A stretch of DNA of 38,769 nt, taken from the IMG/VR virus record IMGVR_UViG_3300022745_000090, positions 1-38,769 of that record. One strand, 5' to 3'. The DNA is from a virus. The first letter of the stretch is position 1; every line of letters starts with the position of its first letter. Of this stretch, positions 2,362 to 38,769 are shown piece after piece. Position numbers and translations under genes: made by a program. The notes beneath the pieces were generated by a model, which was not told the origin of the DNA, searched no databases, and saw only the letters and a list, made by a program, of their open reading frames with translations.

Positions 2362-4533
2362 TTAGGCTGCTGGCTGTTGTTTGAGTGCGGCCTCAGCCAT
2401 CTTTTGCCGCAAATCTTGGGCGTTTTTAGCATCTCGGAACGCCATGTCCTGACGGTGGCGCTCTTGGTCAAACTGGAGGTCTTGTTGTTTCTTTTGAAGC
2501 TCTAGCATGGTCTGTGCTTCCACGGCTTGCCGTTCAACACCAGGGGTTGAGCCACCATCATTAACCTCTTCGCCAGCCGTCCTTTGAGCTTTTCGAGCTT
2601 CAGCGTCCAGATGCTTTTGACCGTTGATCACCACTTCGCCAATCTGCTCAAGGGAAGCCTTGAACTCAGGGTAAAGCGGATTCTCAGGACTGATAAACTG
2701 CATATGCTCGGTGGCATGCTGCCAGACCGGGAACATTTGCTTGATAGCGGCATCCAGTTCGATTTGAACCTGCGAGAGCGCCCCGTTGATTTCCGATAGC
2801 GCCGCCAAATGGCTGCCAACGTGAACCACATGATCCTGATTCGGCTCAATCTGCGCAGGTTTGCCAAGCTCCATAAGGGAGTTTTCCATGTTGGCAATCT
2901 GCAAGTCCATCGGAGGACGGCTGCCAGATTCATCAGGGACCAGCAAGCGGGCAAACTGTGTGTCAGTGTAAGATGCCGTGAACTGGCGCAGGAGAATCCG
3001 TTGTCCTTCTTGGTCGAACTGTCCCATGACCGGCATCAAAGCTCCAAACGAAGCACGGCGGTCTTGGGCGCTGCCCTTGCCGATCCCACGGTTGATTTCG
3101 ATGGAGCCGACATCAACGGCATAGATAGCGTCAATCGGCACTCCACGCTTCAAGCAGCGCTTGCGGAACTCAAAGATTTCCTTCCCGCCTGGATGTGCTG
3201 CTGAAACTTCAGGGTTGCACGCACGACGAACAACTTCGCGGAAGTCATTCTTCCAAGAGTTAAAGAACAGATCGACGCTGGCTGCATTTAAGCGTCCTTC
3301 AATCTCATTTTGCGAGCGAACTTCTTCGGCGGTTTTCGCCACATTGCTGAACTTCATCGCCGCCCCAGGGGAGCGTGTCCGCATGGCAAAGATGCTCTGC
3401 ACCTGTTGAATGGCGGGAATGAGAGACTGCTGAAATGGAACGTGAGGGATTTCAGGGAACGTGGTGCCTTGATCGACCACGTTATAAGGCCCACGCGGGC
3501 GGATCATTTGGTCAATGACCGCATCCTCGGAGCTTGCCTGAATATGAGGAGTGGCCGCAAAACAAGCCTGATCCAAGAACTTGCAGGTCAGCATGTTCAA
3601 GCTGGCTGAACCGTTGTGGCCCCTCCAAGCATTGCCGCGAATGGAGTAAAAGTCACCATTGCTGCCGACACCGTACGTGTAGGCCGTGACGAGCTGGCTC
3701 ATGTCCTGATAAAGACCCTCGCACTTGTAAAGGAAGTCGCCAACGCCGTCGTAACGGGCAATGATGTGGGTCACAGTTCCATCGCATTCACGAATCCAGC
3801 CATGAACGATGTCAACAGTGGTGGCAGAAAGACCGGTGAAGTAGTCCTGATCCTTGTACGTCCGCTCCATCTCCTGTGGATTGGAGGTGTCCGCCGCTTT
3901 CTGCGTGGCAGACTTCATCGCCTTTTTGACTGCCTCAACATTCCAGCCAGCCTTTGCCGCCGCTTCTTCATTCTCAATTTTGCGATAAAGCTGAGAGGGA
4001 AGCATTTCGACTTTGCACGTCACGATGTCCACATCATTGATGCAGGCGCGAGTCCGGCGGGGCATCTTCAGGAAGGAAAGATCGTAAGCCTTCCATCGCC
4101 AGTCGTATTGATCCTCGCGGAAAGTAAAAGCGACACCAAACATCGTGAAAAGATGTATGGTCATTTGTAAGGTGAACGGCCAATCGGGCCAGTTCTTGAT
4201 CATCCGGGTGACTTCCTCGGCGATGATCTGCGAATTGCGATTGCGCTCAAGCTCTGAGCCGTAGTCGGAAGGCGTGGTGCCAAAAACGTCAATCGACTCA
4301 AACAGAGAGTTGTATGGCTCCTCAACGTCCTGCTGGCTTTGGGTGAGATACCCCCAATTGACGTTGGTTCTGCCGCCCAGACCGAATTTGCGATCCTCGG
4401 ATTCCGAGTAAGGCGGGTTCCCATCTACCTCGGATTGCACCAATGCCCGTGCCCGGCTTGCCTCAAAGTCCGAACTGAACAATGCTTGAAACGTCGATGC
4501 CAGTTCAGACGCCGAAGAAATGCGATTGCGCAT
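2362..4533 (-). CDS. Portal (head-tail connector) protein
   Basis: About 723 residues from the chosen start. It is long, has no signal peptide, and is rich in helices with an acidic/Gln-rich C-terminal tail (QKKQQDLQFDQERHRQD region). It lies first in the run portal, small protein, scaffold, capsid. Its size and an internal stretch of the type MRTRSPGAAMKFSNVAKTAEEV resemble the clip/stem region of podovirus-like portals. The ATG at 4533 (MRNRISS) is chosen because GGAG stands 8 bases before it. An in-frame ATG at 4614 would add 27 residues but has no ribosome site and sits 2 bases from a strong hairpin. The assignment is by context and overall resemblance. Confidence 0.72.
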   Translation of the reverse strand: MRNRISSASELASTFQALFSSDFEASRARALVQSEVDGNPPYSESEDRKFGLGGRTNVNWGYLTQSQQDVEEPYNSLFESIDVFGTTPSDYGSELERNRNSQIIAEEVTRMIKNWPDWPFTLQMTIHLFTMFGVAFTFREDQYDWRWKAYDLSFLKMPRRTRACINDVDIVTCKVEMLPSQLYRKIENEEAAAKAGWNVEAVKKAMKSATQKAADTSNPQEMERTYKDQDYFTGLSATTVDIVHGWIRECDGTVTHIIARYDGVGDFLYKCEGLYQDMSQLVTAYTYGVGSNGDFYSIRGNAWRGHNGSASLNMLTCKFLDQACFAATPHIQASSEDAVIDQMIRPRGPYNVVDQGTTFPEIPHVPFQQSLIPAIQQVQSIFAMRTRSPGAAMKFSNVAKTAEEVRSQNEIEGRLNAASVDLFFNSWKNDFREVVRRACNPEVSAAHPGGKEIFEFRKRCLKRGVPIDAIYAVDVGSIEINRGIGKGSAQDRRASFGALMPVMGQFDQEGQRILLRQFTASYTDTQFARLLVPDESGSRPPMDLQIANMENSLMELGKPAQIEPNQDHVVHVGSHLAALSEINGALSQVQIELDAAIKQMFPVWQHATEHMQFISPENPLYPEFKASLEQIGEVVINGQKHLDAEARKAQRTAGEEVNDGGSTPGVERQAVEAQTMLELQKKQQDLQFDQERHRQDMAFRDAKNAQDLRQKMAEAALKQQPAA

Positions 4534-4616
4534 TTTGATTTCTCCAGTCTCCTGATTGATGATCGACGGAAGAGTGGATGGCGAGACTGAGCCTGAATTT
4601 GAGGTAAAAATCATTA

Positions 4617-4647
4617 GCGGTCACTGCTCAAATAAGCAAGTGACCGC
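4617..4647. promoter_or_regulatory. 9-bp hairpin in the portal leader
   Basis: GCGGTCACT (4617-4625) pairs perfectly with AGTGACCGC (4639-4647), with an inner GCT/AGC extension. On the minus strand it lies in the leader of the portal gene, followed after 7 bases by a run of five T. It could be an operator, an attenuator or a processing site. Confidence 0.5.
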
Positions 4648-4719
4648 ATTGTTGCCTTACGGATATTATGGAGTCAAGGACTAAATTTACGGTAATCGCA
4701 AACCTTGGGCAGAACTTTC

Positions 4720-4748
4720 GCTCCTCCGAACGCTCCGCGTCGGAGAGC
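4720..4748 (-). terminator. Hairpin just after the stop of the 4755 gene
   Basis: GCTCCTCCGA (4720-4729) can pair with TCGGAGAGC (4740-4748) with one bulge. It begins 7 bases past a minus-strand stop codon. There is no T-run after it, so it may be a transcript-end stabiliser rather than an intrinsic terminator. Confidence 0.35.
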
Positions 4749-4754
4749 TATGTG

Positions 4755-5066
4755 TTATGCAGAGCGGAGGCGGTGCGCATCGTAGCGGCAGAAGTCCACG
4801 AAGGACTCAAAGCATTCGTCGCATTTCCGGTATCGGGCGTATCGCTCTTGAGCCTTGGTTCTCTTTCGGAGTGCGCCCATTCCCAAATATTCAACTTCGC
4901 TCGTCGGGTGCGCGTTTCGGATTTCTCCTGGTTTATCTGCGTCGAAGTTAACGCCGATGTAGTGCCCGCGATCTTCGGCGATGATGCCGGGTTTTCCGCC
5001 GACTTTGACGAGTCGCCCAATTTCGGCGGGGACTCCGTAGTATTGTTTTACATATTCACAGTTCAT
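4755..5066 (-). CDS. Conserved-looking phage hypothetical protein
   Basis: A 103-residue protein starting MNCEYVKQYYGVP. It has a compact beta-rich core (IGRLVKVGGKPGIIAEDRG) followed by a Lys/Arg-rich C-terminal half with a C-x2-C pair (RKCDECF). The N-terminal part looks like a small SH3-like barrel, while the C-terminal Cys and charged residues suggest nucleic-acid or metal binding. An upstream in-frame TTG at 5099 is possible, but the ATG is preferred. It stands alone between hairpins at 4720 and 5127. Confidence 0.8.
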   Translation of the reverse strand: MNCEYVKQYYGVPAEIGRLVKVGGKPGIIAEDRGHYIGVNFDADKPGEIRNAHPTSEVEYLGMGALRKRTKAQERYARYRKCDECFESFVDFCRYDAHRLRSA

Positions 5067-5126
5067 GATTTTCGGAAGATTAAAGACGGAGCATAACAAT
5101 ACGTTGCAGGGAATTCGGGTTACGTG

Positions 5127-5158
5127 TCAGGGGTGCGAGCGACTGTCCTCCCCCCTGA
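5127..5158. other. Inverted repeat upstream of the 4755 gene
   Basis: TCAGGGG (5127-5133) and CCCCTGA (5152-5158) form a 7-bp stem with an 18-base loop. It lies in the 105-base gap between the stop of the 5172 gene and the next start. It is not followed by a T-run on either strand. Confidence 0.35.
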
Positions 5159-5171
5159 GTTTTCTTGCGCT

Positions 5172-5435
5172 CTAACAAAGTTTGATTGGCCTGCCATGAG
5201 AGTCCGCCCAGATCTTAACAGGAAGCGGCAGTGCTAGAATTTGCTCGATGTGTGCGCGTCCCCTCTCAGTCGTCATCCAACCGCTCGTTGGATGTGGGGC
5301 ACTCTCTTCATCTGGCTTGATTAGACCGCTTTTCACGAGATCGTTGAGATACTCGTTTTTCGTGTCCGTGAGTGATTCGATTGGCTCGCAGATAGCGTGT
5401 GCATGGAGTAACAATTGGATGTGTAATGGAGTCAT
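5172..5435 (-). CDS. Small winged-helix-like phage protein
   Basis: An 87-residue protein (MTPLHIQLLLHAHAICEP). The pattern of an N-terminal helix, a middle ending in GLIKPDE, then TTERGRAHIEQILALPLP resembles small winged-helix proteins common in phages, where the TERGRAH wing follows the recognition helix. The start is supported by a strong GGGAGG site seven bases upstream and by an ATGA overlap with the preceding gene. DNA binding is likely but unproven. Confidence 0.82.
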   Translation of the reverse strand: MTPLHIQLLLHAHAICEPIESLTDTKNEYLNDLVKSGLIKPDEESAPHPTSGWMTTERGRAHIEQILALPLPVKIWADSHGRPIKLC

Positions 5436-5623
5436 TGGCTATCCTCCCTCCACAAGCTCAGCCTGTCGCCATCAATCTTGTACTTCACCTCGTTTTTCGC
5501 GCACCATTCGGCTAGGTTTTCCACGAAGTCCTTGGCGCGGACGCCCATCGAGCACACAGGGCCAGCAGGAATGGACTGGAGGTGCGCCAGGGCGGCTGAG
5601 AGGGCGTTGCGGTAGTTGATCAT
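5432..5623 (-). CDS. Small hypothetical protein
   Basis: 63 residues beginning MINYRNALSAALAHL. It is helical with a short beta end (KYKIDGDRLSLW). Its start overlaps the upstream stop (ATGA) and its stop overlaps the downstream start (ATGA), so it is translationally coupled on both sides. No family recognised. Confidence 0.78.
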   Translation of the reverse strand: MINYRNALSAALAHLQSIPAGPVCSMGVRAKDFVENLAEWCAKNEVKYKIDGDRLSLWREDSQ

Positions 5624-5934
5624 AACGAGTTGAGAATTGCCAACTTTTCTTGCTCTGCTCCTTTGACGCGAACAGTTTCAAAGACAGGCCAAGCTTTTTC
5701 CCAGATGAGCTTTCTTAATTCACTCGGAATCCTCCATTCTATTCCTGCGTCAAGCCTTTTCCCTACACGCACAGACACATAATCCCAAGGGGGAGATGGT
5801 CCAATTTCCTTGAATGCCTTGATGAGCAAATTGTCATTGCCCATTCCATAGGAATTTGACACCCAAATCCAGCCATCTGCGGACGCTAGTTTTGAAATGA
5901 TCTTATCTGCAATCTGTTGATCTTGTTCGGTCAT
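5620..5934 (-). CDS. Hypothetical protein, alpha/beta
   Basis: 104 residues from ATG (MTEQDQQIADKIISKLA). The frame continues upstream to a GTG at 5994, but the ATG is preceded by CTAAAACG, the genome's recurring start leader. The sequence SNSYGMGNDNLLIKAFKEIG followed by a beta-rich part (WDYVSVRVGKRLDAGIEWRI) looks like a small globular fold. No catalytic motif. It is coupled to the next gene by ATGA. Confidence 0.75.
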   Translation of the reverse strand: MTEQDQQIADKIISKLASADGWIWVSNSYGMGNDNLLIKAFKEIGPSPPWDYVSVRVGKRLDAGIEWRIPSELRKLIWEKAWPVFETVRVKGAEQEKLAILNSL

Positions 5935-6061
5935 CGTTTTAGAAATTGGTGCCTGCCGCCGCCAGAGTCCAGCTTTGGAACTGAGTTCCGCCACATTGGA
6001 TTGAGTGCTCTCTGGCGCTTTCTTTCGGATCGTCCAGCACAGGAACGGTCAGGCAAATTGG

Positions 6062-6367
6062 TCACTGGCAACTTTCACACGTTTCACCGTCACAAGCCTG
6101 CCGCTGTGGAAGTGGCTCATCAAGATCGGTGTCGATGCTGGGCTTTTCGATGATTGTCGTGGGAGGTTCTTCGCTCATGTGGCAATCTTCGCTCGGAAGA
6201 GATGAACCGTCAAGTTGAGTTATGCACCCACGGGCGAAAGTTGAAAGTTCTTGTCCGTAAGTTGGATCAAAATCGGCAAACAAATATTCGGGATGAATTT
6301 GTTGTGGCATTGCCTTTGGTGCCAAGGCAGCGCCAAGGATCATTTTGAAAAACGAGCGTAGCTTCAT
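6062..6367 (-). CDS. Hypothetical protein with Cys-rich C-terminus
   Basis: 101 residues from ATG (MKLRSFFKMILGAALAPK). The N-terminus has a basic stretch and a short hydrophobic run resembling a signal or membrane anchor. The C-terminus is acidic and ends in CDGETCESCQ. The start overlaps the upstream stop by ATGA. The frame extends to 6472, but only through antisense-like sequence over the upstream gene. Function unknown; possibly an exported or membrane-tethered small protein. Confidence 0.65.
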   Translation of the reverse strand: MKLRSFFKMILGAALAPKAMPQQIHPEYLFADFDPTYGQELSTFARGCITQLDGSSLPSEDCHMSEEPPTTIIEKPSIDTDLDEPLPQRQACDGETCESCQ

Positions 6368-6573
6368 TTTATTTCCGCTTTCTTCCTCCGCCCTCTCAAG
6401 CAGCCGCAGCTTTTCGTCTGACCGGTGACTAAACGCTGATACAGCGCGATTTTCTTCCCGCCGCACTCGCATTCACAAAGCCAAATGGAGTTCTGCCACT
6501 GGTTTTTGCCTAGGTATTCGATGACTGTCAGCTTGCCAAAAGTCTTCCCTTTTAGGGAAATTTGCTTGTTCAT
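6364..6573 (-). CDS. Stand-alone zinc-ribbon protein of the type found in phage HNH/AP2 endonucleases
   Basis: 69 residues. After SLKGKTFGKLTVIEYLG it carries C-x-C-x-C-GG about residues 35-40 and SCGCL near residue 60. This four-plus-cysteine module normally forms the N-terminal DNA-binding part of phage HNH or AP2-type proteins. Here no nuclease follows. The same module appears alone at 9019-9231 and fused to HNH at 30101-30760. It may be a DNA-binding adaptor or the remnant of a homing endonuclease. ATG at 6573 is chosen over an upstream TTG. Confidence 0.82.
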   Translation of the reverse strand: MNKQISLKGKTFGKLTVIEYLGKNQWQNSIWLCECECGGKKIALYQRLVTGQTKSCGCLRGRRKKAEIK

Positions 6574-23571: not shown

Positions 23572-23596
23572 AAATCATCATTTCGGCTGATGATTT
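23572..23596. promoter_or_regulatory. Perfect 9-bp inverted repeat over the first ATG of the HNH frame
   Basis: AAATCATCA (23572-23580) and TGATGATTT (23588-23596) with a 7-base loop. The ATG at 23590 lies inside the right arm, so RNA pairing would hide it. It may be an operator, a weak terminator for the genes upstream, or a translation block. Confidence 0.5.
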
Positions 23597-24207
23597 ACTC
23601 GGAAAATCTTCCCTCTCATGCCATAACCGTTCGCGGAAGTGGGCCGAACATGAGGGGGATTTTTACGCCAATGGAACGAAAATCATTAAGCAAGCGACTG
23701 CGATTCTCAATCTTCACCAGAGATGGATACACTTGCAGATATTGTGGAAAGCAGGCTGGCGATGTCATTTTACACATAGATCATATTATCCCGGTATCGA
23801 AAGGAGGGACGAATGATGAATCAAATTTGATTACTTCTTGTGTTGATTGCAATTTGGGGAAATCCAATATCGGCATTGATGCGGTAGCCCCAACTGAAAT
23901 GGATCGGTTACGAATGATTCAGGAGGCTTTGGAGCAAAGAACAGCAGCAATGTTTGCGGCTGAGTGTGCTAAAAACAAAATTCAAAGAGAGTCTTCTTTG
24001 GCTGATTTTTGGCGCGATCTGACTGGTAGAGATTCAGTTGATATAGGAACGCTGCATGTCGTAAACAGTTATTTGAGAGAGTACGGAGAAGAGATGGTAT
24101 ATGCTTGGGTGGCAAAGGCTGCTATGTCCTGCAAATGGTCGGATACTGCTATGGGTAAATATATCAGTGGGTGCAAAAGGAAGCACATCGAACAAAATGA
24201 AAATTGA
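23590..24207 (+). CDS. HNH endonuclease
   Basis: 205 residues. The HNH core is clear: FTRDGYTCRYCGKQAGDVIL, HIDHIIPVSKGGTNDESN and the second C-x2-C pair in SCVDCNLGKSN. The C-terminal 100 residues are helical and unfamiliar. Base composition is lower in G+C than the flanks. Starts at 23650 or 23671 are alternatives to the shielded ATG at 23590. Likely a homing-type insertion or a packaging-associated nuclease. Confidence 0.85.
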   Translation: MIYSENLPSHAITVRGSGPNMRGIFTPMERKSLSKRLRFSIFTRDGYTCRYCGKQAGDVILHIDHIIPVSKGGTNDESNLITSCVDCNLGKSNIGIDAVAPTEMDRLRMIQEALEQRTAAMFAAECAKNKIQRESSLADFWRDLTGRDSVDIGTLHVVNSYLREYGEEMVYAWVAKAAMSCKWSDTAMGKYISGCKRKHIEQNEN

Positions 24208-26020: not shown

Positions 26021-28288
26021 ATGGGCAAGCACGCCAAAGTAAAAGTCAAATACGGCATCTCGTTCAAGCCGATCAAAGACCCAAAAGGTAGGGGAATTAC
26101 CTGCCCCGATTGGTTTATCGAGCGTCAGATTTTGACGCATTACGAGCAGTGCAAAGCCATTAGAACGGCTAGGCTGCTGACTTGGTGTGAGCACTTCTGC
26201 CGCTTGGTGGACATCATTTTCGGCGACCCAAAGGGCATCTGGCCGTTTGAGTGGAACCCGAACGCCATGCGGATTCTCAAGAACTTCCGCAAGCATCACA
26301 TTCTAGCGGTGGCGGGCCATGCGTCGTGCGTTCATGGCTCAACGCGGATTTACAATCCCCAGACCAAGGATTCACCCACCATTCAAGAGCTTTACGAGCG
26401 CAAAGAAGCTCCAATGGTGATGACGCTGAATGGCCCTGTCCAGGCTGAAGTTCCCTTCATCAAGGGGCATCAAGACCTTTACGAACTGGTATTGAGCAAT
26501 GGCGGCAAATTCACATGCACCTTGGGGCATCGTGTTTTAACACCTGATGGCTACAAGACTGTCGCCTCGATTTCTTGCGGAGACTCCCTGCTCGGATACG
26601 ATCCTTCTACCTTGGAAGTCGCCCCTGTGCGTGTGGAGTCCATTACCGGAGTTGGCAAGGATACGTTTTACGACATCCACGTCCCGGTAGAGGAGCATTA
26701 TTTCGCCGAGGGAGGAATCCACCACAACAGCGGCAAAACTCATGCAATGGCCCTGATCGCGGTTATGATGTTCTGGCTTGATCCCAAGAACACCAAGGTT
26801 CTTGTCACCTCCATTACCGCCTCTGCTGCCGCTGGTCGTGTCTGGGGCCATGTGAAGAACTGCTGGACGCACATGGAGGGATTCTTCGGTGCTGCGAACA
26901 TGCCAGGGAAGCTCATCGACTCCAAGAACAAGATTCGCTACGAGAACAACGGTCACAAGGACGAGACTCGCGGGATCGAGCTGGTAGTCGGCGAAAAGTC
27001 TCAGGCCAAGCAATCGGCATCCAAGGTGCAAGGCATCAAGGCTCCAAAACTCATTCTCATGGGCGACGAGTTTGCCGAACTTGAACACAGCCTTGTCAGG
27101 ACGGCGCTCACCAACTTGAAGCGAAATGACGAATTTTGGCTCCTTGGCGCATTTAACCCGACTGACATGTTCGGGCCAGACGGGATCATCAGCCGACCCA
27201 AAAACGGGTGGCATTCCATCACCGAGGACGACGATGAATGGGAAACATACCTAGAAGAATACGGCTATAAAGGCTACTGCATCCGCTTTGACGGTGAGAA
27301 GTCACCGAACATCCTCGCGGGCCACAACAAGCATAAAGGGCTTCTCAAGGTCGAGGACTTGAAGGAAGCGCAATCCCAGGGCGTTCGCACGGCTGCTTAC
27401 TACCAGATGATTCGCGGCTATTGGAGTCCAGTGGGGATGCTTGATGCCATCTACTCCGCTGCTGACATCATCAAGTGGCGTGGCGATGCCAAGGTAACGA
27501 CGTGGATCGAGCCTCCAACGATGGTTGCCGGACTTGACCCTGCTTTCACGCACGGTGGCGACAGGGCGGCTTTGGTCATTGGCCGCGTGGGAATCGCCAT
27601 GTCGGATGCCGGAGTGCGGCAAAAGGTCTTTGAAATCGTCAAAGTTTACTCCCTGGACGAAGACGTTACGAACACATCCATTTCCAAGACAGAATGGGTG
27701 GTGAAGCTCACCAAGGAGAAACTGGCAGAGCACAAGGTTGATGTGAAAAACCTCGCGATTGATGCAACTGGTGGCGGCGATCCATTCTCAGCATTGATTG
27801 CCCGCGACATCGGCATGGGCTTCCTGAATGTGAAGTTCAGCGGGAAGCCATCAGACAAGCCGGTCAGCCGAAATGATCCGCGCAAGGGCCACGAACGCTT
27901 CCGCAACATGGTTTCCGAGCTTTGGTATGTGGGCAAGGAACTGATTCGCTCCGGCCAAATCAAGGGGCTTACCGGCGACATCATGGGCGAAATGGTGGCT
28001 CGAACCTATAAGGAATCCAACGGTCTTGTTTGCGTAGAACCGAAGGATGATATGAAGGCGCGTATTAAGAAATCTCCCGACTTCGCTGACGGATTTTTCC
28101 TCGGACTTCACCTATGCCGCATGCGTCACGGCCTTTCTTCCAACGAAGCCGCCGCTCCAAGGGCTATTTCACGGATGAACTCGACATACTCTCTTTTCCC
28201 GCCGATTGACCTGAACCGCAGGCAGCCGCAGCAGACAGCACCCTCCTATATTGTACTCAACGGGGGCTGGGGCCAAGGAATTGCTTGA
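26021..28288 (+). CDS. Terminase large subunit (TerL) with intein
   Basis: 755 residues, 621 after splicing. ATPase domain: the P-loop is split by the intein and reads GHAS-SGKT when joined. Walker B is LILMGDE at 344-350, and the ATPase coupling motif region is GAFNPTDMFGPDG. Nuclease domain: D506 and D514 in GLDPAFTHGGDRAALVIG, with D581 in AIDATGGGDP. It pumps DNA into proheads and cuts it. Codon use matches its neighbours. It lies on the plus strand beside DnaB, far from TerS. Confidence 0.93.
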   Translation: MGKHAKVKVKYGISFKPIKDPKGRGITCPDWFIERQILTHYEQCKAIRTARLLTWCEHFCRLVDIIFGDPKGIWPFEWNPNAMRILKNFRKHHILAVAGHASCVHGSTRIYNPQTKDSPTIQELYERKEAPMVMTLNGPVQAEVPFIKGHQDLYELVLSNGGKFTCTLGHRVLTPDGYKTVASISCGDSLLGYDPSTLEVAPVRVESITGVGKDTFYDIHVPVEEHYFAEGGIHHNSGKTHAMALIAVMMFWLDPKNTKVLVTSITASAAAGRVWGHVKNCWTHMEGFFGAANMPGKLIDSKNKIRYENNGHKDETRGIELVVGEKSQAKQSASKVQGIKAPKLILMGDEFAELEHSLVRTALTNLKRNDEFWLLGAFNPTDMFGPDGIISRPKNGWHSITEDDDEWETYLEEYGYKGYCIRFDGEKSPNILAGHNKHKGLLKVEDLKEAQSQGVRTAAYYQMIRGYWSPVGMLDAIYSAADIIKWRGDAKVTTWIEPPTMVAGLDPAFTHGGDRAALVIGRVGIAMSDAGVRQKVFEIVKVYSLDEDVTNTSISKTEWVVKLTKEKLAEHKVDVKNLAIDATGGGDPFSALIARDIGMGFLNVKFSGKPSDKPVSRNDPRKGHERFRNMVSELWYVGKELIRSGQIKGLTGDIMGEMVARTYKESNGLVCVEPKDDMKARIKKSPDFADGFFLGLHLCRMRHGLSSNEAAAPRAISRMNSTYSLFPPIDLNRRQPQQTAPSYIVLNGGWGQGIA
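26327..26728 (+). other. Mini-intein in the TerL P-loop
   Basis: 134 residues from Cys (CVHGSTRI) to HHN, followed by Ser+1. Block A is the opening CVHGSTRIY. Block B is FTCTLGHRVLT, with the T-x2-H charge relay. Block F/G is EEHYFAEGGIHHN. There is no LAGLIDADG or HNH endonuclease domain, so it is a mini-intein of minimal size. The insertion splits GHAS from SGKT, the nucleotide-binding loop, so the enzyme is inactive until spliced. Confidence 0.93.
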
Positions 28289-29967: not shown

Positions 29968-30099
29968 ATGAAAAATGGAAGCTATCAACACGCCTCAAGG
30001 GCTGGCAAAATCGGCGGAAAATCTACTTCTGATAAGAAAAAAACGGCAAGCAGAATTAACGGCAAAAAGGGTGGCAGACCGAAGAAAAAACACAGCTAA
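29968..30099 (+). CDS. Small basic protein with GKKGGRP motif
   Basis: 43 residues: GKIGGKSTSDKKKTASRING followed by KKGGRPKKKHS. This is a recurrent small Lys/Gly-rich phage protein and is strongly basic. It overlaps in another frame with the apparent N-terminus of the HNH frame at 29975, which is thus judged false. Probably nucleic-acid binding. Confidence 0.68.
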   Translation: MKNGSYQHASRAGKIGGKSTSDKKKTASRINGKKGGRPKKKHS

Positions 30100-30100
30100 C

Positions 30101-30760
30101 TTGGGAGTCATTAATTGGAATGAAGCTCAAGGTATGCGGTTTGGAAAACTTGTGGTCATTGGCCTGTCCAGAAGGAATGAAAAATCAGTTGCGTATATGA
30201 TGTGTAAGTGTGATTGCGGAAAAGACAAAGAAGTGTGTTCCTCTTTTTTAAAAAATGGTGATACACAATCCTGCGGGTGCTTACACAAAGCCATAATGAG
30301 TGGCCACAAATGGAATAATATTCACGGCCATTCTATGCGCGGCAAGGCCTCCAAAGAATACTTGACCCACAGGGGCATGCTGGCCCGCTGTCACGGCATG
30401 GGTCATTCAAGATATTCAGGAAGGGGAATTATCGTTTGCGACCGTTGGCGTTTTGGAGAATTTGGGAAGACCGGATTCGAGTGTTTTATAAAAGATATGG
30501 GGAACGCCCCATCTAAAAAGCATTCGATTGACAGAATTAACAACAACGGCAATTACGAGCAATCTAATTGCAGATGGGCCACTGCTACTCAGCAGGGTAA
30601 CAATCAACACAACACCATCAAGATCGAATGGAACGGTGAAATTAAAGGGGTGTCTGAGTGGGCTAATATGTTTAATATGCCAAGGCAACTAATTTACTCT
30701 AGGGTTGTCCAATTGGGGTGGGATATTGAAATGGCTTTATTCACGCCGAAATTATCTTAA
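30101..30760 (+). CDS. Zinc-ribbon HNH endonuclease
   Basis: About 219 residues. N-terminal zinc ribbon: GMRFGKLVVIG, CKCDCG and DTQSCGCL. Then the phage-type HNH core SIDRINNNGNYEQSNCRWAT, and a C-terminal DNA-binding helix region (SEWANMFNMPRQLIYSRVVQ and GWDIEMALF) of the NUMOD type. The exact start is unclear: TTG at 30101, ATG at 30131 or ATG at 29975. Likely a homing endonuclease. It sits between glycosyltransferase genes, as a mobile intruder would. Confidence 0.82.
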   Translation: MGVINWNEAQGMRFGKLVVIGLSRRNEKSVAYMMCKCDCGKDKEVCSSFLKNGDTQSCGCLHKAIMSGHKWNNIHGHSMRGKASKEYLTHRGMLARCHGMGHSRYSGRGIIVCDRWRFGEFGKTGFECFIKDMGNAPSKKHSIDRINNNGNYEQSNCRWATATQQGNNQHNTIKIEWNGEIKGVSEWANMFNMPRQLIYSRVVQLGWDIEMALFTPKLS

Positions 30761-33286: not shown

Positions 33287-33853
33287 TTAATGCTTAGCCC
33301 AGCACCAACTAGGATAGGCTATTTCCCCATCTTCCAGAACGCCAAGTTCTAAATGTACCTTGAGCTTCAAAAGACATTTGCACCGTTTGCATGACAGCAA
33401 TTCAGCGTCTTTGCTTGTCTCGGGCCAGCCAATACGTTCGGCGAGCCAGCTCAAAGCAGACTGGCAGCCAAAACACAGTTTCACATGCTTGTTGTAAACG
33501 CACCTGGCGCAGATGTCTGCACGACGTTCTGATTCAGATTTATCGACCCATTTTCCGCCTTCGGACAGCCAGTTTTTGACCGTGCCGCCAAAGCGGGCGA
33601 TGTCGTCAACCGTTACGTAAGTTTCAGGCTCGCCAATCTCCCGGCACTCAATCCCAGGATTTTGCTCGCACATTTCGTGGCGCACCACAGCCTGCCAATT
33701 ATCAGGAATGGGAATGTCATTCGCGTTCCATGCGATGTACACACGGGTCAAAATCGCTGACAAAGCGTGATCGTGGAATGGTATTTTCGTCCGTGGATCG
33801 ACGTACGCCCATCCCCCAGAAGGGGCTTCAATTTCATTTACAGGCTGCTTCAT
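33287..33853 (-). CDS. Cys-rich virion-region protein
   Basis: 188 residues. N-terminal half without known motif (GGWAYVDPRTKIPFHDHALS). C-terminal half with C-x2-C pairs: ADICARCVYN, CFGCQSALS and SCKRCKCLLKLKVHL, ending in YPSWCWAKH. Probably binds two zinc ions. ATGA overlap with the stop of the giant gene upstream ties it to the virion operon. It may be a structural or assembly protein. Confidence 0.8.
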   Translation of the reverse strand: MKQPVNEIEAPSGGWAYVDPRTKIPFHDHALSAILTRVYIAWNANDIPIPDNWQAVVRHEMCEQNPGIECREIGEPETYVTVDDIARFGGTVKNWLSEGGKWVDKSESERRADICARCVYNKHVKLCFGCQSALSWLAERIGWPETSKDAELLSCKRCKCLLKLKVHLELGVLEDGEIAYPSWCWAKH

Positions 33854-36800
33854 GGGCGGATGGCGAGTCTTTCGGCGCGGTCGCGAACTTCCTTGGATTT
33901 GTCCGCAATGAAGGCTTTGGCGCGTTCTTTTGGCATCGCAATAGCCCTGTCGCCATATTGCTCAATCACCTTGCGGTAGCCAGCTCCGACGAGCTTGATG
34001 TAGCGGTTCTGCTCCTCTGGCGTCAAATGGCGACGGCGAGCCTTGGTGCCAACTGTCCGCATTTCTGGCGAGGATGGAGGCATCCAAATGTCACGGCTGT
34101 TCAGGATGCCGAGTTTGCGATAGGCTTCATCGCTTGGCGTTTCGATAACGGCGCGGCTCCAAGGACTTCTGGAGGTTCTGATTGGCTCGCCAAAGATGTT
34201 CAGTTTCTCGCCGCCGATGTGCTGGCGGTAAATTGGGATTTCCTTGCCAAGGTTCTCCCAAACTGTCTCATATTTGCGAGCACGATCATCAAGGAGCCAG
34301 AAATCCAGGTCTTTGAAGACACGAGGCACAAAACCACCGGCAAAGTTGGTGCCAACACGAGTTATGCGTTTGACGAAAGCCTCGTCAGGGTCGGACTGGT
34401 AGGCGCTCTTGCCAACGAGGTCAGCAAACTGAGAAAGCGCCGCTGAATCCAATGTGGATGTGGCTGCAATTGCAGTGGCGGCAACCAATCGGTCTGCGAA
34501 TTGCTTCTGATCCCATTTCTCACGCTTGAATTTCACCATGTCAGTCATGGTGCCGATGGCGGCAAGCATGGAGCTAATCGGCCATGTTTTGTAGGCCAGG
34601 GTGACAGGTTTGCCGTTCTGGTAAAAGGTGATGGTGTATTCCTTCTTGCCGCTGTCTGAAAGCTGCTTCTTTTGTTCGGCGCTCAACCCGTCCCATGAGC
34701 CCTGAATATCAAATCCACGCTTTTCTGGATCGTCCTCATCCTCGATGGACTTGATGGCGTACATGCCAGCAAACATGAGCAAAAGGCCAAACATCTGATT
34801 GTTTAGGATCATCTGGCGCTTGGTAGCGTGATAATTCTCTGCTTCGGCAAGGCGGAACATGCCGATTCCAGGGATGTAAGAGAGTGAGTCATTCAGTTTG
34901 TTCGCGCCAAATCGGATGAAGCGGAAACCGAGCAAGTTGCGTGCAGAATATATAGCGAGTTGCCGCATGGTAGCTAAAGCATATCTGACATAAGCCTCGT
35001 GTTTGGCTACTTCAGGGTCTTTAAGCATCGCTTTGGCTGCTTCCTTGATCCTGTCAGAAGAAATGGCGGTTCGTGTTACTTTTTCAAGAATCCAATCGTA
35101 AATATCACCAGCAATACCTTCTGGCTCAATTGTTCCAGCCGCCACACCGCCAGCATAGGAAGCTCCATCAACGATGTCCTGAACATTGTGATAAAACTCG
35201 TCCGAGATGTGCCTTGTCCACGCATTAAGAGCGGTTTCTTCCTGGGAATTAGCAGGCTCGCGGCCTTCTAATAGGTATGCCTTTGCTCTATTCCTAAAAT
35301 GCTGCATTTCGCTCTCATTTGGCAGGCGGGCAGAATCGTAAAGCTTCTTGTTTTGAGCAATGGCAATCGGGAGGTAGCCATATTTGGTGGCGGTTGCATT
35401 GATGTGGTCGAGCGCCGTCAGAATGCGCTCAACGGTCTGCATGAACCGGCCAATCATACGCAAAACCTTGCCTTGAACCTTATCTGCCGCAGTAGCGCCA
35501 GCTTCTTTGTCCTTGTTCCAATGGGTAAGCTGATACGAGGTGGACGTTGGATTGCCGCCTTTCAATCCCTTGCCGAGGAAGCGGGAAAGTTGATCCTTGG
35601 AGTTCACCAAAATGGAAGTGTCGCCAGTTTTGATGAAGTGTGCGGCTTCCTTGAAGGCTTGTGGCAGGATGCCGAAAAACCGGCTCAATGCTTGTGCTGG
35701 AGTCTTGAAATCGCCATGAGATGCCAGGCTCGTTGATTCCACGAGGATGCGCTGCAAGCCGTTGAGAGCGGCAAATCCGATGTCAAAGAATGTTCGAGGC
35801 CCGGCCAGCACAGCCGCAACCCATGCGTCATTGAGAATCTTGGCCCAATTGAGGTCTTGAGTCGCAGTAATCAACTTGAGAAGCTCGTCCGCTTTTTTGG
35901 CGTAAGCCGGGGCTGGCAACTCAGGGTCTTGCAACTCTTCAGCCAGTTTCTCAGCGCGTTCCATCGCCTTCTCGTCAATCGGCTTGACGCCATACTTCTT
36001 GGCGAGGATGGCATTGAACGTGTCGCGGTTAAACGTGCCGTCATTGAATGCTTCCAGCAGTTCAGGGGTGGCTGATTCTAGCTTTTTGGCAGCCCCTTTG
36101 TTGGTGATCCAAGGGAGCTTCAACGTCTTGTCAGCCTTGAGCTTTTGCCCAAGATAACTGGCCTTGCGATCAATCCACGCTTGATCCAGCAGCTCAACCA
36201 GTTGCGCTTTTTCATCGTCTTTTAGGTCTTTGAAAGCCTCGTTCTCCTTGACCTTTGCCAGCATGTCGGCACGACGGCGTTCTTGACCCGCCTTTGGAAG
36301 GGTGAAGATGTCCTTCCAGGCCCACCCATCGCGAGTTTTGTCCAGCAAGCGTTGGAGCGCGGTCATCTTGCCAGGCTTGAGCAAGGTTTCTTTGCGCGTT
36401 GCTTTGGCAATACGTCCAGCCTTTGCTTTGCCGGATTGCGGAGAATCGGCTTGTCCAGAGGAGAAAAGTTCATTTCCAATGGCTTCAAGGGCGTCGCCAA
36501 TCTTCTTGTCCAATGAGGAGATTTTATCATCAATGCGGGCAAGTTCTTTCTCAAGCTCTGCCACTGTCATTGAATCGTATGGATTCGAGGCGGCATTGGC
36601 TGCGACAGACTGTTTGAGCTTGCCTCCTTTTGCCAAAATAGACGCCATCACATGCGCTCTTTTTTGAAGGAATTTGGCCTTTTCAGCCAGCCATCCCCTC
36701 ACTTTCGCCATCAGCAAGCGGGCCTTTTCTGGCAAACTAGCCTCCGCCTTTTCCAGCCACGACTGCTCAAGCAGCGATTCCACATCATCGCTTGCCTCGG

Positions 36801-38769
36801 TGCTGGAAGTATCGCTTAACCCGCCAAGTCCTTCTGTTGTGTCCTTGCCAAAGTTAGAATCGACGACAGCGGCCTGATCCTCTTTCTTGTTGGTCTTGAT
36901 CGTATCAATGGCAAACATGCCAGCAAAACGCGGGTCTTTCTGGATTTGCTTGATCGTGTTGAGGTCAACGCCCCCTTGAGAAGCGCCTCTGCGAAGGAAC
37001 GCGGCAGCATTGTCAACGGCATCATTGAGCCGCTGTTTTTGTTCAGGATCGGTTGCCTCTTTGGCTTTGGCACGAAGAAAGTTTTGCGCCGCCGCAATCA
37101 GGGTGGTCTGGAAATCACCCATGTATTCGGCGTCAATGGACTTGAGATACTCGCTGTTCAGAACCTCATTTGGAAGTTCTGTGATGTCATCCAGGCTGTC
37201 GGCAATCTCCTTGACGAATTTCTGCGCAAGATCGGCCTTGGCTTTGTAATTCTGCTCTGTGCGCAATGGAGCAACCGGCTCACCTTGGGAATTGGTAAGC
37301 GGATGGCCTTGATACGGAACTGTCTCGCCTGTGATGCGATACTTTTGCAGGTCTGTTTTTTGGCGGTTGATGACATCGCTGCTGATCCTGCTCGCCTTGA
37401 TCGTGGAGGGCATCAGGAGCACTGCCGATGCAGGACCGGAACTGCCAAGACCCATATTGAAATACACGCCATATTTCTCTCCCTGCGCAATCATTGCTTC
37501 GTTGCTTGGAAGATTATTCATCAACATTGCAGCGTCCATTTCATAAAGTTCCTGTACCTGCTCGCCAAACTCACGCTCTGTCAGCGTCGGCATCGTCGCT
37601 TTAACCTCATCGTAGAGTCGATCTAGGCTCACCCAAATGTCGGCAGCTTTCGTCGAAGCACGGTCATAAGCGGAACGGATTTCGTCGCGGATGGATTGAG
37701 GTGATGCCCCTTGCTTCAAAGCAGGGACTTGGGCTGTTTGAGCATCTTCAGGAAGCATTTCCTGATACATCCTGTTCAACTCGTCCATTGCTTCTGGACT
37801 ATTCGCAACCTTGTTTGCCAGGAACGAAGCCCATTGATGAGCAATGCTTGGATCGCTGTAGTGATTCCGAGTAACGCCAAGCAAGCGCTGCCTGTCCTCG
37901 CCGTCTGTATTGGTTAGAATCCATTCCGTTTGCTCCGGGGTTAATTCGGCAATATCGCCTGTTTTGAAGGCAGAAAGCGGAAGATCGCGCTTGATCACCT
38001 TGGCGTTCGGATTCATCTCGTAATACATGGAATTAAGTTCCATGAGGGCATCTTGAGATAAAACCTTGTTGGCAAGGAAGCGATACCACTGATTTGCCAC
38101 ATCAGCGTTTTTGTAATGACTGAATGAAACTCCCAGAGCATCTTGGCGTCCTTTGCCATCCAATTGAGTCAGTGCCCAATCAATGTTTTCGGGCGACATA
38201 TTCTCGATGTCACCAAGTTTTCCCGATGCAGGAGCCTGCGCCGTTGAAAACAACTTGTTCGCCGTCCCTGTGGGCTGCGCGTTGACATCAAACAGGCGCG
38301 AAAGAGCTTTCGGAACCTCCGGCGCTTTCTCGCGTTCGCGCATCGCACGCATGCGTTCTGCCGCGCTGGCAAGCTGGGCGTCGATTGGGTTGGAGTAGGA
38401 AGGGCGAGATTCGCGAATATCCGGCGATGCCGCGTTGAAGCGCTGTGAGACGTTGCCGGAGCCGTCGCGGATTTTGCCGCCCTTAATCAGTGATGTTGGA
38501 TTTGTCTTTGCCCCTTTATCCGTCAAAACAACGACGTGATTGATCAGGCTTGTGCCATGTGGGGCCATCTCACCGCTTAACTCAATGAGTCCATCGCGGT
38601 TCAGCGCTTGGAATGTCCGGGTTAGCTCTGGCGATGCTTGTGAGTTATAGAATGTGGTGTTTGGGAATTGCTGCAAATGAGCCATTACCAATGCCTTGCC
38701 AAGACCCATTCCTTTGAATTTATCAGGAACCGTTACACGCTCAATTCTGCGTGTTTTTGTTACCTGCTT
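33850..38769 (-). CDS. Giant polyvalent virion-type protein (runs off right edge)
   Basis: The frame is open to the window edge, so at least 1639 residues are coded and the true N-terminus lies outside. The visible N-terminus has a GNAT-like acetyl-CoA loop (VTVPDKFKGMGLGKALVMA). Next come two tandem 70-residue repeats, long charged helical regions and, about 300 residues from the end, a membrane-type helix (MFGLLLMFAGMYAI). The C-terminus resembles large polyvalent or internal virion proteins (LPD-like) that enter the host with DNA. The function call is by architecture. Confidence 0.82.
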   Translation of the reverse strand, partial: KQVTKTRRIERVTVPDKFKGMGLGKALVMAHLQQFPNTTFYNSQASPELTRTFQALNRDGLIELSGEMAPHGTSLINHVVVLTDKGAKTNPTSLIKGGKIRDGSGNVSQRFNAASPDIRESRPSYSNPIDAQLASAAERMRAMREREKAPEVPKALSRLFDVNAQPTGTANKLFSTAQAPASGKLGDIENMSPENIDWALTQLDGKGRQDALGVSFSHYKNADVANQWYRFLANKVLSQDALMELNSMYYEMNPNAKVIKRDLPLSAFKTGDIAELTPEQTEWILTNTDGEDRQRLLGVTRNHYSDPSIAHQWASFLANKVANSPEAMDELNRMYQEMLPEDAQTAQVPALKQGASPQSIRDEIRSAYDRASTKAADIWVSLDRLYDEVKATMPTLTEREFGEQVQELYEMDAAMLMNNLPSNEAMIAQGEKYGVYFNMGLGSSGPASAVLLMPSTIKASRISSDVINRQKTDLQKYRITGETVPYQGHPLTNSQGEPVAPLRTEQNYKAKADLAQKFVKEIADSLDDITELPNEVLNSEYLKSIDAEYMGDFQTTLIAAAQNFLRAKAKEATDPEQKQRLNDAVDNAAAFLRRGASQGGVDLNTIKQIQKDPRFAGMFAIDTIKTNKKEDQAAVVDSNFGKDTTEGLGGLSDTSSTEASDDVESLLEQSWLEKAEASLPEKARLLMAKVRGWLAEKAKFLQKRAHVMASILAKGGKLKQSVAANAASNPYDSMTVAELEKELARIDDKISSLDKKIGDALEAIGNELFSSGQADSPQSGKAKAGRIAKATRKETLLKPGKMTALQRLLDKTRDGWAWKDIFTLPKAGQERRRADMLAKVKENEAFKDLKDDEKAQLVELLDQAWIDRKASYLGQKLKADKTLKLPWITNKGAAKKLESATPELLEAFNDGTFNRDTFNAILAKKYGVKPIDEKAMERAEKLAEELQDPELPAPAYAKKADELLKLITATQDLNWAKILNDAWVAAVLAGPRTFFDIGFAALNGLQRILVESTSLASHGDFKTPAQALSRFFGILPQAFKEAAHFIKTGDTSILVNSKDQLSRFLGKGLKGGNPTSTSYQLTHWNKDKEAGATAADKVQGKVLRMIGRFMQTVERILTALDHINATATKYGYLPIAIAQNKKLYDSARLPNESEMQHFRNRAKAYLLEGREPANSQEETALNAWTRHISDEFYHNVQDIVDGASYAGGVAAGTIEPEGIAGDIYDWILEKVTRTAISSDRIKEAAKAMLKDPEVAKHEAYVRYALATMRQLAIYSARNLLGFRFIRFGANKLNDSLSYIPGIGMFRLAEAENYHATKRQMILNNQMFGLLLMFAGMYAIKSIEDEDDPEKRGFDIQGSWDGLSAEQKKQLSDSGKKEYTITFYQNGKPVTLAYKTWPISSMLAAIGTMTDMVKFKREKWDQKQFADRLVAATAIAATSTLDSAALSQFADLVGKSAYQSDPDEAFVKRITRVGTNFAGGFVPRVFKDLDFWLLDDRARKYETVWENLGKEIPIYRQHIGGEKLNIFGEPIRTSRSPWSRAVIETPSDEAYRKLGILNSRDIWMPPSSPEMRTVGTKARRRHLTPEEQNRYIKLVGAGYRKVIEQYGDRAIAMPKERAKAFIADKSKEVRDRAERLAIRP
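37756..38217 (-). repeat. Tandem ~70-residue protein repeat
   Basis: Two units offset by 85 residues: GDIENMSPENIDWALTQLDG...FLANKV...MYYEM and GDIAELTPEQTEWILTNTDG...FLANKV...MYQEM. They share about half their residues, including FLANKV. They lie behind the GNAT-like region and may be substrate- or host-binding modules. Confidence 0.8.

Follow-up and report, generated by a model that had tools for sequence, protein, structure and literature searches.

The gene for the terminase large subunit (TerL) in the stretch of viral DNA analyzed here (38,769 nucleotides; the window) is very likely interrupted in its Walker A motif, or P-loop, by a self-excising class 1 intein without a homing endonuclease, and this intein very likely derives from a lineage of P-loop inteins carrying an HNH gene on the opposite strand, the window copy probably having lost that gene. 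A broader reading is also likely, if a little less so: the P-loop inteins of TerL would form a large lineage with an opposite-strand HNH gene and selection on both strands (the antisense strand for encoding the nuclease, the sense strand only for an open frame that lets intein and packaging motor be produced), from which the window mini-intein shed the gene, so that empty, antisense-HNH, and mini alleles are found at one site.

The intein corresponds to residues 103-236 of the TerL precursor (CVHGS...GGIHHN), with ...VAGHAS before it and SGKTHAMA... after it, and its removal is predicted to leave a spliced TerL of 755 - 134 = 621 residues (Table 1). The first-pass annotation had placed here a 134-residue intein with Cys1, T-x2-H, a terminal HN, and Ser+1 between GHAS and SGKT, and its coordinates and lengths proved exact. 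The interrupted gene had likewise been named correctly, as both the window protein and an intein-free orthologue, L002 (1.1e-11), match phrog_2. Relatives of the window TerL, at 57-75% identity, occur on about 34 viral contigs; at the sensitivity used in the host search, none was found in bacterial or archaeal genomes. The surroundings of TerL gave no Rfam match to a group I or group II intron or another RNA element.

Table 1. Features of the interrupted TerL gene, other genes of the window, and the antisense gene of one relative (positions refer to the window unless a locus is given).
Feature	Position	Strand	Evidence or context
TerL ORF, 755-aa precursor	26021..28288	+	phrog_2, E 4.5e-11
N-extein, ending with the P-loop first half GHAS (26315-26326)	26021..26326	+	
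Class 1 mini-intein, 134 aa	26327..26728	+	TIGR01445, fold model, empty-site relatives
Intein block B, T65-L-G-H68	26519..26530	+	H68 invariant among 24 mini-inteins
Intein block F, YDIHVPVEEHYF	26669..26704	+	
Intein block G, GGIHHN, with penultimate His133 and Asn134	26711..26728	+	
C-extein, opening with Ser+1 and the P-loop second half SGKT (26729-26740)	26729..28285	+	exact join in empty L002-L004
Free-standing HNH gene (phrog_374)	29975-30760	+	flanked by the 30705-31766 gene and a glycosyltransferase-like gene
HNH gene (PF01844, 3.9e-15)	23590-24207	+	upstream of a DnaB-like helicase gene
1619-residue ORF	33850-38709	-	sole match phrog_17986; partly common to L010 and L014
Antisense HNH homing endonuclease gene of L150	L150:6315-6941	-	

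By its sequence anatomy, the element is a complete class 1 cis-splicing mini-intein. All of the class 1 splicing residues are present (Cys1, T65-x-x-H68, D116 of block F, H133-N134, and Ser+1), and in an alignment of 24 mini-inteins C1, H68, D116, V119, G129, H133, and N134 are invariant. The intein scores 27.7 bits against the NCBIfam family TIGR01445 (intein_Nterm; cut-off 24.5), or 29.8 bits in a whole-record search, and 24.5-29.7 against the Pfam family Intein_splicing (PF14890), which is below the gathering score of 35.8. An AlphaFold2 model adopts the HINT fold with a pLDDT of 96.3; its best solved match in Foldseek is the Mtu RecA intein 3ifj (E 1e-10, TM 0.90), with whose splicing domain the window intein also aligns end to end in sequence. 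The first-pass annotation had seen no homing nuclease in the insert, and this holds: no endonuclease family matches it, and the frame corresponding to the antisense gene of its relatives is broken by stops.

From this anatomy, the intein would excise itself post-translationally through an N-S shift at Cys1, transesterification to Ser+1, and cyclization of Asn134, restoring GHASSGKT; until then, TerL would not hydrolyze ATP. The role of the P-loop in ATP hydrolysis is well established. Because the insertion splits the Walker A motif, ATP hydrolysis and DNA packaging should both wait for splicing.

The empty form of the site is found in the closest relatives. Fifteen relatives of the C-extein were fetched first, and a profile search enlarged the family to 34 contigs. 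The nearest members (L002-L004, 75% identity) read AIAGHASSGKTHAMA, with the GHAS and SGKT halves joining exactly. Insert-free relatives failing to join these halves had been named beforehand as evidence that would speak against an intein; since the relatives at 75% identity read GHASSGKT, this test did not refute it. The P-loop could be read in 33 members, of which 29 have an empty site, in the versions GHASSGKT, GHKSSGKT, GHKSSSKT, GHASSSKT, and GCASSGKT, and two (L087 and L150) have an intein at the site used in the window, of 141 aa in L087 and of 315 aa, including an antisense HNH gene, in L150. L087 lacks the antisense gene of L150, although the exteins of these two are 91% identical. 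The remaining two, L277 and L278, whose TerLs are identical (ORF 3657-6548), contain a different intein of 340 residues with LAGLIDADG-like motifs in frame, inserted three residues further on at GK/T (the slash marking the insertion point), the position classically occupied by mycobacteriophage TerL1-a (PMC5050341). With two intein sites in one TerL family, GHAS/SGKT and GK/T, the P-loop appears to have been invaded at two positions. Judged by this distribution, the intein is a selfish element of patchy occurrence and not a conserved regulator.

Used as a direct query, the window intein retrieved only weak phage matches and no confirmed relative in viral contigs. P-loop inteins were then sought in viral contigs by the DNA pattern G....HN/SGKT, which matched at least 120 stretches for each class of serine codon. 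The matches listed include 237 loci with usable ORFs, a number that is a lower bound from a non-random sample. On these counts, P-loop inteins in phage TerL are ordinary in number. The largest group by C-extein similarity comprises 162 of the 237 loci among the matches listed, and the PHROG names for the exteins of the listed antisense-HNH loci are mostly terminase large subunit. The extein that holds the antisense-HNH intein of L160 shows no relationship to the main TerL group; a single SbcC-like member, found when the antisense-HNH set was scanned against PHROG, may be L160.

Among the matches listed, resolved inteins fall into two size classes, one of 128-166 aa and one mostly of 260-360 aa. 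Blocks B and F of the long inteins are separated by an insert that reads as Cys/Ser-rich nonsense in the intein frame, while its opposite strand encodes an ORF of 170-290 residues. Using a profile of these antisense ORFs, an antisense HNH was detected in 110 of the 237 HN/SGKT loci listed, in a single phase throughout; an HNH in frame was found in 13 of the loci listed, mostly in other P-loop proteins. Among the matches listed, 81 of the 95 resolved inteins measuring 250 aa or longer contain the antisense HNH, and none of the 29 shorter than 200 aa does. Six of the antisense ORFs were tested against the Pfam family HNH_3, four scoring above gathering and two just below, and a model of the antisense HNH (pLDDT 82) has I-HmuI, an HNH homing endonuclease, as its nearest match (E 0.025, probability 1.00). 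As read from these ORFs, the relatives carry an HNH gene in antisense orientation, flanked by blocks B and F, and their intein frame stays open across it. No description of an antisense or opposite-strand endonuclease inside an intein was found in the literature searched, most subscription journals being outside the search.

The same arrangement occurs in isolated phages. Pectobacterium phage Taid has an antisense-HNH intein in TerL (AGFG/C...HHN/TGKS), in a CDS annotated only as a hypothetical protein, and Pseudoalteromonas phage PHS3 (L259, 1203-3329, minus strand) has a complete intein within an open frame of 708 codons. Both phages grow with the insert and must therefore make a working TerL, which provides indirect evidence of splicing. 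The public annotation of PHS3 includes the HNH and starts TerL only downstream of it. As this example illustrates, gene finders confronted with an antisense HNH miss TerL or call it too short.

The overlap leaves a distinct signature of selection. In the fixed phase, position 3 (the wobble position) of the antisense codon coincides with position 2 of the intein codon. Counted over 160 related pairs, which are non-independent, substitutions at intein codon positions 1/2/3 number 895/3672/645 inside the antisense ORF and 952/695/5539 outside it. The excess at position 2 inside and at position 3 outside indicates antisense-gene evolution in the insert and sense-gene evolution in the splicing blocks. 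In 110 of the 110 listed loci, the intein frame runs through the antisense ORF without a stop, an open frame not having been required for their selection; when the antisense codons are shuffled synonymously, about seven intein-frame stops per gene are expected. By these measures, both frames are under selection, and that on the antisense frame is purifying.

With regard to its history, the best relatives of the window intein are those at the same site, L087 (41%) and L150 (43% and 40% for its two halves), and in a tree of splicing domains it groups with L150 and L087 (support 0.93). Since it groups with an antisense-HNH intein and a mini-intein, the window intein is probably a copy that lost the antisense endonuclease. 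The gene is absent from the window copy, and the tree alone places this copy in the antisense-HNH lineage. Across the tree, endonuclease-free mini-inteins are interspersed among antisense-HNH inteins and form 14 maximal clades if the gene is ancestral. In a strict label test, which is weak, the tree requires 14 changes, only slightly below the 17.5 for shuffled labels, with a minimum of 12. Intein and HNH distances are correlated (Mantel r 0.59, 0 of 2000 permutations). The single antisense phase in the 110 listed loci, together with these correlated distances, suggests one ancient union of intein and HNH gene, followed by co-inheritance and repeated loss, as the simplest reading.

It is less likely, at perhaps the level of a serious outside chance, that the window intein never had the antisense HNH and represents an ancestral mini form, the gene having been gained later by copies like that of L150. 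The linker of the window intein contains no HNH relic matching the antisense frame, so that we infer loss, rather than an original absence, from the tree; the interspersion of mini and HNH forms also makes gains formally possible. However, the single phase and the correlated distances argue against such gains. On the preferred reading, that of loss, the window intein would now be inherited with TerL and would be immobile unless helped in trans.

Such help, in the form of collaborative homing, might come from an HNH gene of the window, most likely the free-standing gene at 29975-30760, but we regard this as improbable. Two HNH genes elsewhere in the window had been reported in the first-pass annotation and were found; neither showed similarity to the antisense HNH of the relatives. 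The free-standing gene is missing between the same two neighbors in L004 and in several other relatives with an empty TerL site, which speaks for mobilization in trans, but it is also missing from the intein-bearing L150, and phages often carry free-standing HNH genes. With this junction empty in relatives of both kinds, the gene is probably itself a mobile insertion, and its action on the intein is possible but unsupported.

Even less probable is a regulatory role, in which splicing would be delayed to late infection, or a block relieved by stress, and would time DNA packaging. This idea, put forward in the first-pass annotation as a timing or stress switch, is favored by the position of the insert, in the loop with which an essential motor binds ATP, and by arguments for conditional splicing of other inteins (PMC5050341, discussion). 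However, splicing is quick in five TerL inteins of mycobacteriophages (PMC5050341), and 29 of the 33 readable TerLs are free of any intein, a mobile-element pattern of patchy presence and loss that fits a selfish element and leaves the switch unsupported. What stands of the earlier proposal is its other part: that an intein without a homing endonuclease must splice before TerL binds ATP is well supported by the anatomy, the empty sites, the structural model, and the TerLs of Taid and PHS3. Finally, a degenerate, non-splicing intein in a TerL pseudogene or a misassembled contig is scarcely credible given the intact splicing residues, the 755 open codons, the high-confidence HINT model, and the orthologous same-site inteins of L087 and L150.

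Taken alone, the window intein is one more P-loop mini-intein; the novelty lies in its lineage, in which a mobility gene is carried antisense. With this arrangement, intein endonucleases can no longer be assumed to lie in frame, and a clean system of overlapping genes becomes available, one strand of which has only to stay open. The empty, full, and endonuclease-free alleles found in nature also form a series well suited to tests of the homing cycle.

Several known systems share parts of this arrangement. The Mtu RecA mini-intein (3ifj, 2in0, 5k08) resembles the window intein in fold, splicing residues, and length (139 versus 134 residues), whereas the window intein is natural and resides in another host protein. 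The solved Mtu RecA minis were engineered from an endonuclease-bearing intein. Fractured genes, in which a free-standing endonuclease gene lies between the halves of a split intein, were reportedly described by Dassa and colleagues in 2009. As in the antisense-HNH inteins, an endonuclease gene in its own frame separates the two intein halves, but the latter inteins form one continuous open frame and their endonuclease is antisense.

Closer in position are the P-loop inteins TerL1-a and TerL1-b of mycobacteriophages, for which quick splicing is also known (Kelley et al., 2016; PMC5050341). A comparison of the insertion site with those of other terminases, proposed at the outset, shows P-loop TerL inteins to be already known at sites that differ from that of the window. 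Like the window intein, they are inserted in the Walker A motif of TerL and patchily distributed, and splicing has been shown for TerL1-b (PMC5050341). TerL1-a lies between Lys and Thr (GK/T) and TerL1-b one residue away, whereas the window intein lies at GHAS/SGKT, three residues upstream of the a-type and not at the TerL1-a site; in addition, TerL1-b has an active in-frame LAGLIDADG endonuclease and the window intein has none. Finally, the ShiLan domain is an insert, not an intein, in a phage methylase, with an HNH hidden in another frame (PMC11855218). It resembles the antisense-HNH inteins in being a mobile insert whose HNH is read out of the host frame, which remains open. The ShiLan HNH, however, occupies the third frame in the reading direction of the methylase, in an insert where no splicing domain was found, whereas the HNH of the relatives described here is encoded antisense within a complete intein.
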